Assembly (NCBI RefSeq): GCF_023698535.1
Contig: NZ_JALJCL010000004.1
Location: 124,001 to 188,000, forward strand
Direction of reading: 5' to 3'
Length of the DNA: 64,000 bases
Source of the DNA: Halorientalis regularis
GTDB lineage: Archaea; Halobacteriota; Halobacteria; Halobacteriales; Haloarculaceae
The notes beneath the pieces were generated by a model, which was not told where the DNA came from, ran no database searches, and saw nothing but the letters and a program-made list of their open reading frames with translations. A program made the translations under genes and the position numbers. Positions within the stretch are counted from its first letter, which is position 1. Each line of letters begins with the position of its first letter. This document shows, piece after piece, positions 13,159 to 25,658 of the stretch.

Positions 13159-13238
13159 CCCGTGGCTCCGGCGACCGGGCAGGTCCGATACCGCACGACT
13201 GCAGGTCGGCGATCCGCGACCGGGATCTCTGCGTAAGG

Positions 13239-13246
13239 TTTATTTT
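13239..13246 (+). promoter_or_regulatory. TATA box of the glpK transcript
   Basis: TTTATTTT is the only strong A/T block upstream of glpK. Its centre is about 27 bases before an ATG at 13270 but about 79 bases before the glpK ATG. Archaeal transcription normally starts 24-28 bases after the box, so transcription should begin at or next to the mini-ORF described below. Confidence 0.6.
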
Positions 13247-13269
13247 GGTACACCCTGCCTCTTACCGGC

Positions 13270-13317
13270 ATGACCGCAGTGGCAGTAAAGAAAACAGTCT
13301 CCGGTGCCAGCGAGTGA
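13270..13317 (+). CDS. Predicted leaderless leader peptide before glpK
   Basis: ATG at the predicted transcription start opens a 15-codon frame encoding MTAVAVKKTVSGASE. Its TGA at 13315-13317 ends four bases before the glpK ATG. No Shine-Dalgarno site precedes glpK itself, so ribosomes finishing this peptide could re-initiate on glpK. Two other genes in the window show the same layout (see findings). No homologues can be checked, and a chance frame is possible. Confidence 0.4.
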   Translation: MTAVAVKKTVSGASE

Positions 13318-13321
13318 CACC

Positions 13322-14863
13322 ATGACACGGGACAACTACGTGGGTGCGATCGACCAGGGGACCACAGGGACCCGATTCATGGTCTTCGACCACGGGGGGC
13401 AGGTCGTCGCCAACGCCTACGAGAAACACGAACAGATCTACCCGGAACCCGGCTGGGTCGAACACGACGCCGTCGAGATCTGGGAGAACGCCAAGACGGT
13501 CATCGAGCGGGCGCTGGACGAGGCGGGCATCGAGGCCACCCGACTGGCGGCGCTGGGCATCACCAACCAGCGCGAGACGACGGTCGTCTGGGACGCCGAG
13601 ACGGGCGACCCGATCCACAACGCCATCGTCTGGCAGGATCGGCGGACCACGGACCGCGTCGAGCAACTCGAACGCGAGGGGAAAGTCGACTGGATTCGCG
13701 AGAAGACGGGATTGGAGGCCGACGCCTACTTCTCGGCGACGAAAGCCGAGTGGTTGCTGGACAACGCCGACCCGATCAAGATGGAGCGGACCCGTACCGA
13801 GGACGCCCGGGACCGCGCCGAGGCTGGCGAACTCCTGCTGGGCACTATCGACGCCTGGCTGATCTACAACCTCACGGGGACCCACGTCACCGACGTGACC
13901 AACGCCTCGCGGACGATGCTGTTCGACATCCACGAGATGGCGTGGTGTGAGGACCTGCTCGCGGAGTTCTCGGTCCCCCGGGCGATGCTGCCCGAGGTGC
14001 GCCCCTCCTCGGACGAGGGGTACTACGGGTACACCGACCCCGACGGCTTCCTCGATGCGTCGATCCCGGTCGCGGGCGCGCTGGGCGACCAGCAGGCCGC
14101 CCTGTTCGGCCAGACCTGCTTCGACGCCGGCGACGCCAAGAACACCTACGGTACCGGTTCCTTCTTCCTGATGAACACCGGCGACCAGGCCGTCGAGAGC
14201 GACCACGGTCTGCTCACGACCGTCGGGTTCCAGCGCTCGGGCGACCCCGTCCAGTACGCGCTGGAGGGGTCGATCTTCGTCACCGGCGCGGCCATCGAGT
14301 GGCTCGAAGACGTGGCCCTCATCGACGACCCCGCCGAGACGGCCGAACTCGCCCGCTCGGTCGACGGGACCGACGGCGTCTACGTCGTCCCCGCGTTCAC
14401 CGGCCTCGGTGCACCCCACTGGGACGGCCGCGCCCGCGGGACCATCGTCGGGATGACTCGCGGGACGCGCCGCGAACACATCGTCCGCGCGACCCTGGAG
14501 GCCATCGCCTACCAGACCCGCGACGTGGCCGAGGCCATGGAGGCCGATGCGGGCGTCGAGATGGGGACGCTGAAAGTCGACGGCGGTGCGGTCAAGAACA
14601 ACTTCCTCTGTCAACTGCAATCGGACATCATCGGGACCGAGATCGCCCGGCCGGAGGTCGACGAGACGACCGCGCTGGGGGCCGCCTACGCCGCCGGCCT
14701 CGCGGTCGGCTACTGGGACTCGCTGGCCGAACTCCGGGACAACTGGCACGTCGACGCCGAGTTCGCTCCCGAGATGAACCCGTCCGATGCCGACGCACGC
14801 TTCGAGCGCTGGCACGACGCCGTCGAGCGCTCGAAAGACTGGGCCCGCGAGAGTGGTGACTGA
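13322..14863 (+). CDS. glpK: Glycerol kinase
   Basis: A 513-residue FGGY-family kinase of normal length. It phosphorylates glycerol to sn-glycerol-3-phosphate for the GlpABC dehydrogenase encoded divergently upstream. Motifs include the N-terminal GAIDQGTTGTRFMVFD phosphate loop, TNQRETTVVWD, IDAWLIYNLTG, and the C-terminal ATP-binding DGGAVKNNFLCQLQSDI. The ATG at 13322 gives the conserved MTRDNYVGAIDQ start. The next gene begins nine bases after the stop. Confidence 0.97.
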   Translation: MTRDNYVGAIDQGTTGTRFMVFDHGGQVVANAYEKHEQIYPEPGWVEHDAVEIWENAKTVIERALDEAGIEATRLAALGITNQRETTVVWDAETGDPIHNAIVWQDRRTTDRVEQLEREGKVDWIREKTGLEADAYFSATKAEWLLDNADPIKMERTRTEDARDRAEAGELLLGTIDAWLIYNLTGTHVTDVTNASRTMLFDIHEMAWCEDLLAEFSVPRAMLPEVRPSSDEGYYGYTDPDGFLDASIPVAGALGDQQAALFGQTCFDAGDAKNTYGTGSFFLMNTGDQAVESDHGLLTTVGFQRSGDPVQYALEGSIFVTGAAIEWLEDVALIDDPAETAELARSVDGTDGVYVVPAFTGLGAPHWDGRARGTIVGMTRGTRREHIVRATLEAIAYQTRDVAEAMEADAGVEMGTLKVDGGAVKNNFLCQLQSDIIGTEIARPEVDETTALGAAYAAGLAVGYWDSLAELRDNWHVDAEFAPEMNPSDADARFERWHDAVERSKDWARESGD

Positions 14864-20508: not shown

Positions 20509-20529
20509 ATGGACACCCGGGTACAATGA
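20509..20529 (+). CDS. Predicted six-codon leaderless leader peptide
   Basis: ATG at 20509 opens MDTRVQ and the TGA at 20527-20529 overlaps the ATG of the following gene (ATGA). The 5' edge of the TATA box is 25 bases upstream. The overlap would let a terminating ribosome restart on the main gene. So short a frame could be chance; the repeat of the layout elsewhere supports it. Confidence 0.35.
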   Translation: MDTRVQ

Positions 20530-22884: not shown

Positions 22885-23109
22885 ATGAGTGGCCACGAGA
22901 CCGACGCGGCGACGGGCCTGTCCGAGAAAGCCAAGTTCGCACTGGTTCTGAGCGGCGGCGTCGTCCTCCCCGGACTCGCCAACTACGCACTCGGGGCGGC
23001 CGGCTACAGCACGCTCGGCAGTCTGGTGTGGGTCCTGGGATACGTCGGCGCTGTCCTGCTTCTCTGGTACGTCTGGGTCCGTCCGCTAGACCTGACCGGT
23101 CCCGCGTGA
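22885..23109 (+). CDS. Small two-helix membrane protein
   Basis: A 74-residue protein with a short polar N-terminus and two hydrophobic segments (about residues 18-40 and 45-66: FALVLSGGVVLPGLANYAL and SLVWVLGYVGAVLLLWYVWV). Function unknown. It is divergent from the response regulator, whose TATA element TTATAATT is nearly symmetric and may serve both directions. Confidence 0.6.
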   Translation: MSGHETDAATGLSEKAKFALVLSGGVVLPGLANYALGAAGYSTLGSLVWVLGYVGAVLLLWYVWVRPLDLTGPA

Positions 23110-23425: not shown

Positions 23426-24256
23426 TCAGTCGAGTTTCCCGAGTCCCGCGAAGAAGTCCAGCGGCGGCCCCGCAACTCTGACAGGCTTTTCCGCCCGTTC
23501 GAGCGTGACCGTCGCCGGCGGCGTCACTGCCTCGCTCGTCCGCCCGTCCCCGACGACTACTGCTCGCTCACTGTTCTCGACGGTCACTTCGATCTCACTG
23601 TCGATGTCGACCACCAGCGGCGGCATCTCGGACTCGCCAGCCATCTCGGTCACGATCAGCCCGGACACGTCGGGATGGACGAGCGGACCGTCCTCGCTGA
23701 GGTTGTACGCGGTGCTGCCGGTCGGGGTCGCGATCAACACGCCGTCGGCGTGACCCTCGGTGTAGGTCGCGCCGTCGACCGTGACGTCGAGGTCGACGCC
23801 CTGTCCGTGCCCGCGCTGTGACCCGAGAACGGCGACCTCGTTGATCGCCGGTGGGATCGTCCAGCCGTCGCCGCGGGCTTGCAGTCGGTGCATCGACCGG
23901 GTGTCGGCCCCACCGTCCTCGCGAATCTCCCGGACGACCTCGTCGACCGTCTCGACGGCCACGTCGGGCGAGACCGCGTTCAAGAACCCGACTTCGCCGA
24001 GGTTGACGCCCATGATCGGCGTCGTCCCCGCGCCGCGGGCGGCAAAGAGGAAGGTGCCGTCACCGCCGATGCTGACTACCAGGTCACGGCCGGCCATCGC
24101 GTCGACCGAGACGCCCTCGGCGTCGGGACCGAGGTGCGCGGCGGTGGTCTCGTCGACGACTGTCGGCACGCCCTCGTCGTCGAGGTGTGTCCGGATCTCG
24201 CTGGCCAGCGCGGCGGCGCGGGGATTGTCCCGCTGGGCGACGATGCCGACGTTCAT
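23426..24256 (-). CDS. nadK: NAD kinase
   Basis: A 276-residue ATP-NAD kinase making NADP. It has the catalytic GGDGT motif (LVVSIGGDGTFLFAARG) near residue 65, the NEVAVLG motif, and the TPTGSTAYNLSEDGPLVHPD nucleotide-binding signature. Length and order are normal for the family. The conserved MNVGIVAQRDNP start at 24256 has a TTTATA TATA box at 24282-24288 (reverse strand), 28 bases upstream, so it is leaderless. Confidence 0.95.
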   Translation of the reverse strand: MNVGIVAQRDNPRAAALASEIRTHLDDEGVPTVVDETTAAHLGPDAEGVSVDAMAGRDLVVSIGGDGTFLFAARGAGTTPIMGVNLGEVGFLNAVSPDVAVETVDEVVREIREDGGADTRSMHRLQARGDGWTIPPAINEVAVLGSQRGHGQGVDLDVTVDGATYTEGHADGVLIATPTGSTAYNLSEDGPLVHPDVSGLIVTEMAGESEMPPLVVDIDSEIEVTVENSERAVVVGDGRTSEAVTPPATVTLERAEKPVRVAGPPLDFFAGLGKLD

Positions 24257-24369
24257 CCGTCTCGGGTTTGGCAACGGGTCACTATAAACCGGGCGGACCC
24301 GACCCGGGCGGGCGTATCGGGACGTGAGGCCCGGGCAACATTAATCACGAAGCATACCCAGGGTCGGGT

Positions 24370-24402
24370 ATGGCCATCCGGCCGTCAGTGAGTCACTCAT
24401 GA
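24370..24402 (+). CDS. Predicted ten-codon leaderless leader peptide
   Basis: ATG at 24370 encodes MAIRPSVSHS, and its TGA (24400-24402) overlaps the ATG of the ATPase gene (ATGA at 24399-24402). The TATA element ATTAAT (24340-24345) is centred 27 bases before this ATG, not the main one. This is the cleanest of the three leader candidates. It is too short to test by codon use. Confidence 0.45.
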   Translation: MAIRPSVSHS

Positions 24403-25658
24403 GTGAGGACGACGACTGGTTCGAGAGCGCCGTCGGTGAGGGAGACGGCGACGACGCCGAGACCGCTGACGACGGACACGACGAGGATGCCGCAGCCGAC
24501 GAGGAGTCGCCGTTCGGCGACGCATTCGGTGACGACGGCGACGAGTCGTCCGGTGACGACGCTGGCGGTGACGCTCCGTTCGATGACGAGAGCGACAGTC
24601 CCTTCGAGGGCGACGATGCCGGCGGCTTCGGCGACGGCAGCGCCGACGAAAGCGAGAGTCCGTTCGACGGTGAGAGCAATGACGGCGCGGCCTTCGGTGG
24701 CGGTGAGACCGACACCGCGAGCGACGAGAGCCCGTTCGGCGGTGGCGGCGGCGATAGCGACGCGGACAGTCCCTTTGGCGGTGGTGGGAGCAGTGACGAC
24801 GGCGGCCCCTTCGGCGGTGGTGGCGGCGGTGGCGGCGGTGGCGGCGACGACGGCGAACTGTTCGACGACGACTTCGCCTCCGCGTTCGGATCGGCCGGCG
24901 GCGGTGGCGGCGGTGGCGGCGGCGGCAGCGAGTTCGACGACGAGGACTTCGAGTCCGACATCCCCCGCCTCGACGTGGGGATTCAGGGTCTGGACGACAT
25001 GATTCAGGGTGGTATCCCGCGCCGCCACCTCATCGTCACCATCGGCTCGGCCGGGACCGGGAAGACCACCTTCGGGCTCCAGTTTCTCCACCACGGCCTC
25101 GAAAGAGACGACACCGAGAAGGCCGTCTTCATCACGCTCGAACAGAGCCACGACGCGATCATGGCGACCGCCGACGAGCGCGACTGGAACTTCGCCGAGC
25201 ACGAGGCGGAGGACAACCTCGCCATCATCGACCTGGACCCCGTCGAGATGGCCAACAGCCTCCAGAACATCCAGGCCGAACTCCCCCAACTCATCAAGGA
25301 CTTCGGTGCCGACCGCCTCGTGCTGGACTCCGTCTCCCTGCTGGAGATGATGTACGACAACCAGGCCAAGCGCCGGACGCAGGTGTTCGACTTCACCCGC
25401 TCGCTGAAGAAAGCCGGCGTCACCACGATGCTCACCTCCGAGGCCAGCGAGTCCCACGAGTACGCCTCCCGCCACGGCATCATCGAGTACCTGACCGACG
25501 CCGTCTTCCACCTGCGGTACGTCCGCCAGGAGACCCGCGAGACTCGTATGGCCGTCGAGATCCAGAAGATCCGGAACGCCAACCACTCCCGGGAGACCAA
25601 GCCCTACGAGATCACCGGCGAGGGGATCTCGGTGTACCAGCAGGCCAACATCTTCTAG
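24399..25658 (+). CDS. RecA/KaiC-type ATPase with long acidic SPF/glycine-repeat tail
   Basis: A 419-residue protein. Residues 1-180 are low-complexity Asp/Glu/Gly/Ser with about eight spaced S/A-P-F or A-F units (ESPFGD, DSPFEG, ESPFDG, DSPFGG) and two poly-glycine tracts. Residues about 190-419 form one KaiC/RadA-like ATPase domain: Walker A GSAGTGKTT at 216-224, FITLEQSHDAIMATA, and a Walker B strand in DRLVLDSVSLLEMM. Single-domain haloarchaeal KaiC-like proteins act in signalling or motility, but I cannot assign this one. The disordered tail probably binds partners. Confidence 0.85.
   Translation: MSEDDDWFESAVGEGDGDDAETADDGHDEDAAADEESPFGDAFGDDGDESSGDDAGGDAPFDDESDSPFEGDDAGGFGDGSADESESPFDGESNDGAAFGGGETDTASDESPFGGGGGDSDADSPFGGGGSSDDGGPFGGGGGGGGGGGDDGELFDDDFASAFGSAGGGGGGGGGGSEFDDEDFESDIPRLDVGIQGLDDMIQGGIPRRHLIVTIGSAGTGKTTFGLQFLHHGLERDDTEKAVFITLEQSHDAIMATADERDWNFAEHEAEDNLAIIDLDPVEMANSLQNIQAELPQLIKDFGADRLVLDSVSLLEMMYDNQAKRRTQVFDFTRSLKKAGVTTMLTSEASESHEYASRHGIIEYLTDAVFHLRYVRQETRETRMAVEIQKIRNANHSRETKPYEITGEGISVYQQANIF

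Follow-up and report, generated by a model that had tools for sequence, protein, structure and literature searches.

Organisation of the ATPase locus

The window, a stretch of 64,000 nucleotides from Halorientalis regularis, harbors a gene for a KaiC-domain ATPase that is directly preceded by a mini-ORF (Table 1). The ATPase consists of a long, acidic, SPF-rich N-terminal linker and a single KaiC domain; in the profile search, residues 194-419 matched positions 1-224 of the 224 positions of TIGR03880, above the curated cut-off. The four Cir proteins of H. volcanii have masses of 27.5, 30.1, 52.7 and 29.7 kDa (PMC3941300), and judged by size the ATPase probably corresponds to none of them. The start codon of the mini-ORF is the ATG at 24370-24372 and its stop is the TGA at 24400-24402, so that the two reading frames share an ATGA tetramer. 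A preliminary description of this DNA had located the TATA element, the mini-ORF and the overlap correctly, with the ATTAAT core 27 nt before the mini-ORF ATG.

The ATPase gene and the NAD kinase gene share an intergenic region and point in opposite directions. Because this upstream neighbor is divergent, no preceding cistron could have the mini-ORF as its tail, and an operon-tail reading was rejected on this ground.

Table 1. Features of the ATPase locus (window coordinates)
Feature	Position	Strand	Evidence or remark
NAD kinase gene, divergent	23426-24256	-	PF20143 and PF01513; ATG 24256, first in-frame TTG 24274
BRE/TATA promoter element GGCAACATTAATCA	24334-24347; core ATTAAT 24340-24345	+	matrix score 6.5
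Predicted transcription start	24370	+	at or adjoining the A of the mini-ORF ATG; based on TATA spacing
Mini-ORF MAIRPSVSHS, 10 codons, TGA stop, predicted leaderless	24370-24402	+	position and stop conserved
ATGA stop/start overlap of mini-ORF and ATPase	24399-24402	+	sequence
KaiC-domain ATPase, TIGR03880 KaiC_arch_3	24399-25658	+	305.3 bits against a cut-off of 249.45; Pfam PF06745

Promoter spacing and the predicted leaderless start

Two sister genomes supplied the training set for a BRE/TATA matrix: 289 orthologous gene pairs outside operons, whose starts were set by protein alignment. The data consisted of 0.8 Mb from each sister genome with a codon-model gene set, and the mini-ORF/ATPase site lay outside the training region. 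For leaderless genes the motif start peaked 36-38 nt before the start codon, with 272 of 578 leaders within 2 nt of the mode. At the focal promoter the matrix placed the motif start 36 nt before the ATG of the mini-ORF and 65 nt before that of the ATPase. A TATA spacing as in leaderless genes suggests that the mini-ORF ATG is probably at or near the 5' end of the mRNA.

A strict leaderless TATA was found for 17 of the 45 window genes that have orthologue-defined starts, in agreement with the preliminary count of at least fifteen window genes with a TATA box about 27 bases before their own start. The accompanying statement that the exceptions to this spacing, at 13270, 20509 and the ATPase, all have a mini-ORF exactly where the mRNA should begin is inexact: several other window genes, including those at 22885, 44440, 59170 and 59899, look leadered yet lack a mini-ORF where transcription is predicted to begin.

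Conservation of the mini-ORF in ATPase homologues

Homologues of the ATPase came from two sources, 293 genomes of the order and a set of named genomes, and were then oriented. Their main starts were set by the conserved MSxDDDWFE-type N-terminus, some starts being our own calls. A lone mini-ORF in a single genome would be weak evidence, but of 101 distinct homologue leaders (120 nt) 93 contained a mini-ORF that begins with ATG and terminates at position +1, +4 or +8 relative to the main start, compared to 28.9 expected from dinucleotide shuffles.

In a sharper test the upstream ATG was chosen on TATA spacing only and the stop was ignored. Such an ATG was found in 85 of the 101 distinct homologues, covering five haloarchaeal families (f1, f4, f5, f12 and f17), and all 85 mini-ORFs defined in this way stopped on the main start. 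The overlap was of the -4 type (stop at +4) in 69 cases, -8 (stop at +8) in 13 and -1 (stop at +1) in two, with one further mini-ORF abutting the ATPase gene. This arrangement spans 21 different leader lengths of 23-116 nt, and in none of the 85 cases did the mini-ORF run in frame with the ATPase or far into it. If leader length were random, a stop on the main start would be expected with a chance of about 0.40 per case. The conservation of the stop on the start is far beyond chance, with significance figures that are indicative, the groups being partly non-independent by shared ancestry. The preliminary description had proposed conservation of the ATG, stop and overlap in relatives as a check, and this is what the 85 TATA-placed cases display.

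In the Haloferax homologue (L077) the upstream ATG is at -47, so that the predicted mRNA 5' end would be about 47 nt ahead of the annotated start. Deviating homologues were also found. In L138 a GTG replaces the ATG at the exact predicted start, with the stop at +8 retained. At least five homologues (L052, L078, L087, L098 and L082) retain a leader without a recognisable mini-ORF, from which it follows that the mini-ORF is not indispensable. Two homologues of family f7 (L140 and L141) have only a CTG precisely where transcription is predicted to start, and the frame is open from this CTG to a stop at +4; leaderless initiation on CTG is possible in these sequences.

Covariation of the ATPase second codon with the mini-ORF frame

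The two mini-ORF frames place different demands on the main gene. A frame-2 mini-ORF is closed by the TGA of ATGA or GTGA, independent of the third base of codon 2, whereas closure in frame 1 requires a T-ending codon 2 followed by GA (ATGAGTGA, GTGGCTGA). Codon 2 of the main gene ended in T in 13 of 13 frame-1 cases versus 11 of 71 frame-2 cases (Fisher p=4e-9), the other 60 frame-2 cases having C at this position. With one count per group-frame-base combination the proportions were 7/7 and 7/32 (Fisher p=0.0002). The test is not circular because the mini-ORFs were selected without regard to the stop. Since codon 2 tracks the frame of the mini-ORF, this comparison of sequences indicates that termination at the overlap is under selection.

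The mini-ORF peptide

The encoded peptides of different genera have nothing in common, as illustrated by MAIRPSVSHS, MGRSCGWWSCV, MANGRGVRR and MTATGARSRHE. Inside Halorientalis an M-x-x-R start is recognisable; comparison of the homologue peptides between genera revealed neither conserved regulatory codons nor an arrest sequence. The peptides are rich in Arg and Gly, with 20% Arg and a mean net charge of +1.6; typical haloarchaeal proteins, in contrast, are acidic. Since the peptide is unconserved, selection appears to act on the coupling and not on the peptide, and the preliminary suggestion that the leader peptide itself exerts control finds no support.

Proposed mechanism and alternatives

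We consider it quite probable that the mini-ORF serves as a leaderless cistron for loading ribosomes and feeds the KaiC_arch_3 ATPase gene by termination-reinitiation. Transcription would begin at or adjoining the mini-ORF ATG (around 24370), as expected from the TATA spacing, and a ribosome would initiate leaderlessly on the 5'-terminal AUG. It would read about 10 codons and terminate at the UGA within AUGA (ending at 24402), the frame and stop of this step being conserved in the homologues, and would then reinitiate on the overlapping ATPase AUG (24399). Such reinitiation has been demonstrated for other overlapping gene pairs of H. volcanii, where nine of nine pairs were strictly coupled (PMC6728339). 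The peptide would probably be a by-product, with selection holding the mini-ORF ATG at the end of the mRNA and its stop codon on the ATPase start. As a guess, a sub-maximal or condition-dependent dose of the ATPase may be the reason why the gene is not simply leaderless.

Native overlaps in H. volcanii are mostly -4, followed by -1 and -8 (PMC10666635), and the set found in the ATPase homologues (-4, -8, -1) is the same. An SD motif within the 5'-UTR does not support de novo initiation in H. volcanii (PMC6728339). SD-like matches of at least 4 nt occur upstream of the main start in 72% of the homologues versus 42% in shuffles, and in the window genome a strong SD is absent before the ATPase ATG. 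The core of the preliminary proposal, a mini-ORF located at the predicted mRNA start and coupled to the ATPase start, finds strong support in the maintenance of start, stop and frame over five families.

The mini-ORF might also act as a regulatory leader peptide, its translation sensing a tRNA, an amino acid, a drug or salt, with stalling or poor termination switching the ATPase. A conserved mini-ORF ahead of a single gene, the Arg content of the peptides and the openness of termination-reinitiation to modulation would all suit such a role. We nevertheless regard it as improbable, given that no run of residues or codons is kept between genera, unlike in classical attenuators or arrest peptides, and that the length of the mini-ORF varies from 8 to 39 codons among the homologues. 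Even less probable is that the upstream ATG merely reflects an Inr-like transcription-initiation sequence, or chance, with the ATPase being initiated independently on its 29-nt leader. SD-less leadered mRNAs are translated in haloarchaea, and a few homologues do without the mini-ORF, both of which agree with independent initiation; an initiator sequence, however, would not be expected to hold a frame and stop while the leader takes 21 different lengths, or to show covariation with the second ATPase codon.

It is hardly credible that the ATPase really begins with the mini-ORF peptide, the two being joined by a programmed frameshift or separated by a sequencing error. At an AUGA uORF of mycobacteria, stop suppression with frameshifting does yield a minor product (PMC11260477), but in the haloarchaeal homologues the offset is frame 2 or frame 1 depending on the genus, for which a single direction of shifting is insufficient, and a sequencing error could not recur across dozens of genera. 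Moreover, the MSxDDDWFE N-terminus of the ATPase is conserved whereas the mini-ORF residues are not. An N-terminal extension or frameshift was rejected because of the variation in frame between genera.

Other candidate mini-ORFs

Two further mini-ORFs in the window had been put forward as members of a class. The one preceding glpK (13270-13317) has 15 codons, a stop 4 nt before the ATG and acceptable TATA spacing, and no counterpart was found in any of 18 relatives. It is for that reason probably a chance occurrence, and we no longer count it as a class member. The glpK leader itself (window 13200-13322), promoter included, is completely different among Halorientalis species, while the gene is highly conserved. 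For the mini-ORF at 20509-20529 (MDTRVQ) the motif starts 32 nt before the ATG, compared to 36-38 nt in leaderless genes, which puts this ATG 4-5 nt upstream of the predicted transcription start and not, as had been stated, exactly where the mRNA should begin. The mini-ORF occurs in three members of the genus; in two sister species the ATG has become ACG with the promoter and the TATA spacing intact, the very outcome that the preliminary description had named as refuting, and its class membership is withdrawn.

When TATA placement, coupling and presence in both sister genomes were all required, ATG mini-ORFs were found for three of the 289 genes, whereas non-start triplets gave 0.12 on average. 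With a loose TATA threshold there was no separation from the control triplets; stricter thresholds did separate them. When the TATA condition was omitted, coupled ATG mini-ORFs were not clearly enriched over control triplets genome-wide in a single genome. An ATG at the predicted start (three positions) was present in 18 of 152 leadered promoters, about three times the neighboring rate, and the in-frame cases among these are probably misplaced starts. The three conserved genes are those for the KaiC_arch_3 ATPase, a uspA-type protein and CorA. The class that had been proposed draws its support from the uspA-type gene and corA, and not from the examples first given for it at 13270 and 20509.

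The uspA-type gene (L284; G000:C40:263848-264270, minus strand) is located in the same genome outside the window. It is preceded by a TATA-placed mini-ORF of 25 codons (MERRVGSGIGGSDRPVESGDSEDDG) that ends at +8 of the gene start, and about 15 genomes belonging to several families share this layout, while the peptides are not conserved. Among the corA homologues (L259-L277), a TATA with a leaderless-placed mini-ORF was found in five genomes (G006, G004, G001, G003 and L274), a form present in part of the genus. In most other genomes corA is overlap-coupled to an ORF starting with M-V/I-G-x-x-L, which resembles the tail of a conserved upstream gene. The sequence pattern suggests that a mini-ORF may take over the role of an upstream cistron that has been lost. 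A coupled mini-ORF of 24 codons was also seen in both sister genomes at an apparent B12-type ribonucleotide reductase gene (G006:C1, around 2678989; assigned by sequence reading). Its TATA spacing is 42-43 instead of 37, and it is a possible further member of the class.

Relation to known systems

The architecture itself has been described in mycobacteria, where leaderless small ORFs are coupled to the following gene by an RTGA tetramer (Shell et al. 2015, PMC4633059) and the coupling was proposed to help translation of the second gene (PMC4633059). Like these, the haloarchaeal mini-ORF is an unannotated first cistron of a transcript that is here predicted to be leaderless, and its TGA overlaps the start of the annotated gene, in this case as ATGA. 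Unlike the bacterial examples it is archaeal and lies behind a TATA promoter, is conserved across families in position, frame and stop but not in peptide, and is found with -8 and -1 overlaps besides -4 and with a covarying codon 2. In the uPPE2-PPE2 pair of Mycobacterium tuberculosis, the two reading frames overlap as AUGA and the second gene depends, by way of this overlap, on translation of the uORF (PMC11260477). The same overlap joins the mini-ORF and the ATPase, whereas the mycobacterial pair is SD-led and riboswitch-controlled, neither of which is evident at the ATPase locus.

Closer by taxonomy are the termination-reinitiation pairs of H. volcanii (Huber et al. 2019, 2023; PMC6728339, PMC10666635), which belong to the same class of organisms and have ATGA/GTGA, -1 and -8 overlaps. 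Both members of those pairs are ordinary genes; ahead of the ATPase the first member is a mini-ORF, 8-39 codons long among the homologues, at a predicted mRNA end. A uORF search in H. volcanii based on mapped transcription starts (Babski et al. 2016, PMC4983044) was limited to leaders 150-250 nt in length. The resulting uORFs, likewise small ORFs in haloarchaeal leaders, encode acidic products of 15-31 amino acids, with overlap or conservation unreported (PMC4983044). In contrast, the leaders of the ATPase homologues measure 23-116 nt and the products are basic. The idea of short ORFs as deliverers of ribosomes is described in a 2025 review (PMC12548453). No archaeal account of the architecture was found in the literature searched, and within that literature the archaeal form appears to be new.

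Significance

Whether haloarchaeal leaderless mini-ORFs represent a general, peptide-independent ribosome-loading device for leadered genes, which may also replace a lost operon cistron as in corA, we judge to be evenly balanced. If they do, a mini-ORF at the mRNA end with an overlapping stop would bring ribosomes to genes where SD-led de novo initiation fails. Such mini-ORFs are missed by annotation pipelines and by uORF surveys restricted to long leaders; the combination of a TATA-placed ATG and a stop on the main start suggests a search recipe for finding more. For the ATPase mini-ORF, a prokaryotic uORF, sequence alone is enough to demonstrate conservation across families. To the question of how haloarchaea initiate translation on mRNAs that have a leader but no functioning SD mechanism, this locus offers a concrete, testable answer for at least one gene family, namely that the leader itself would be translated.
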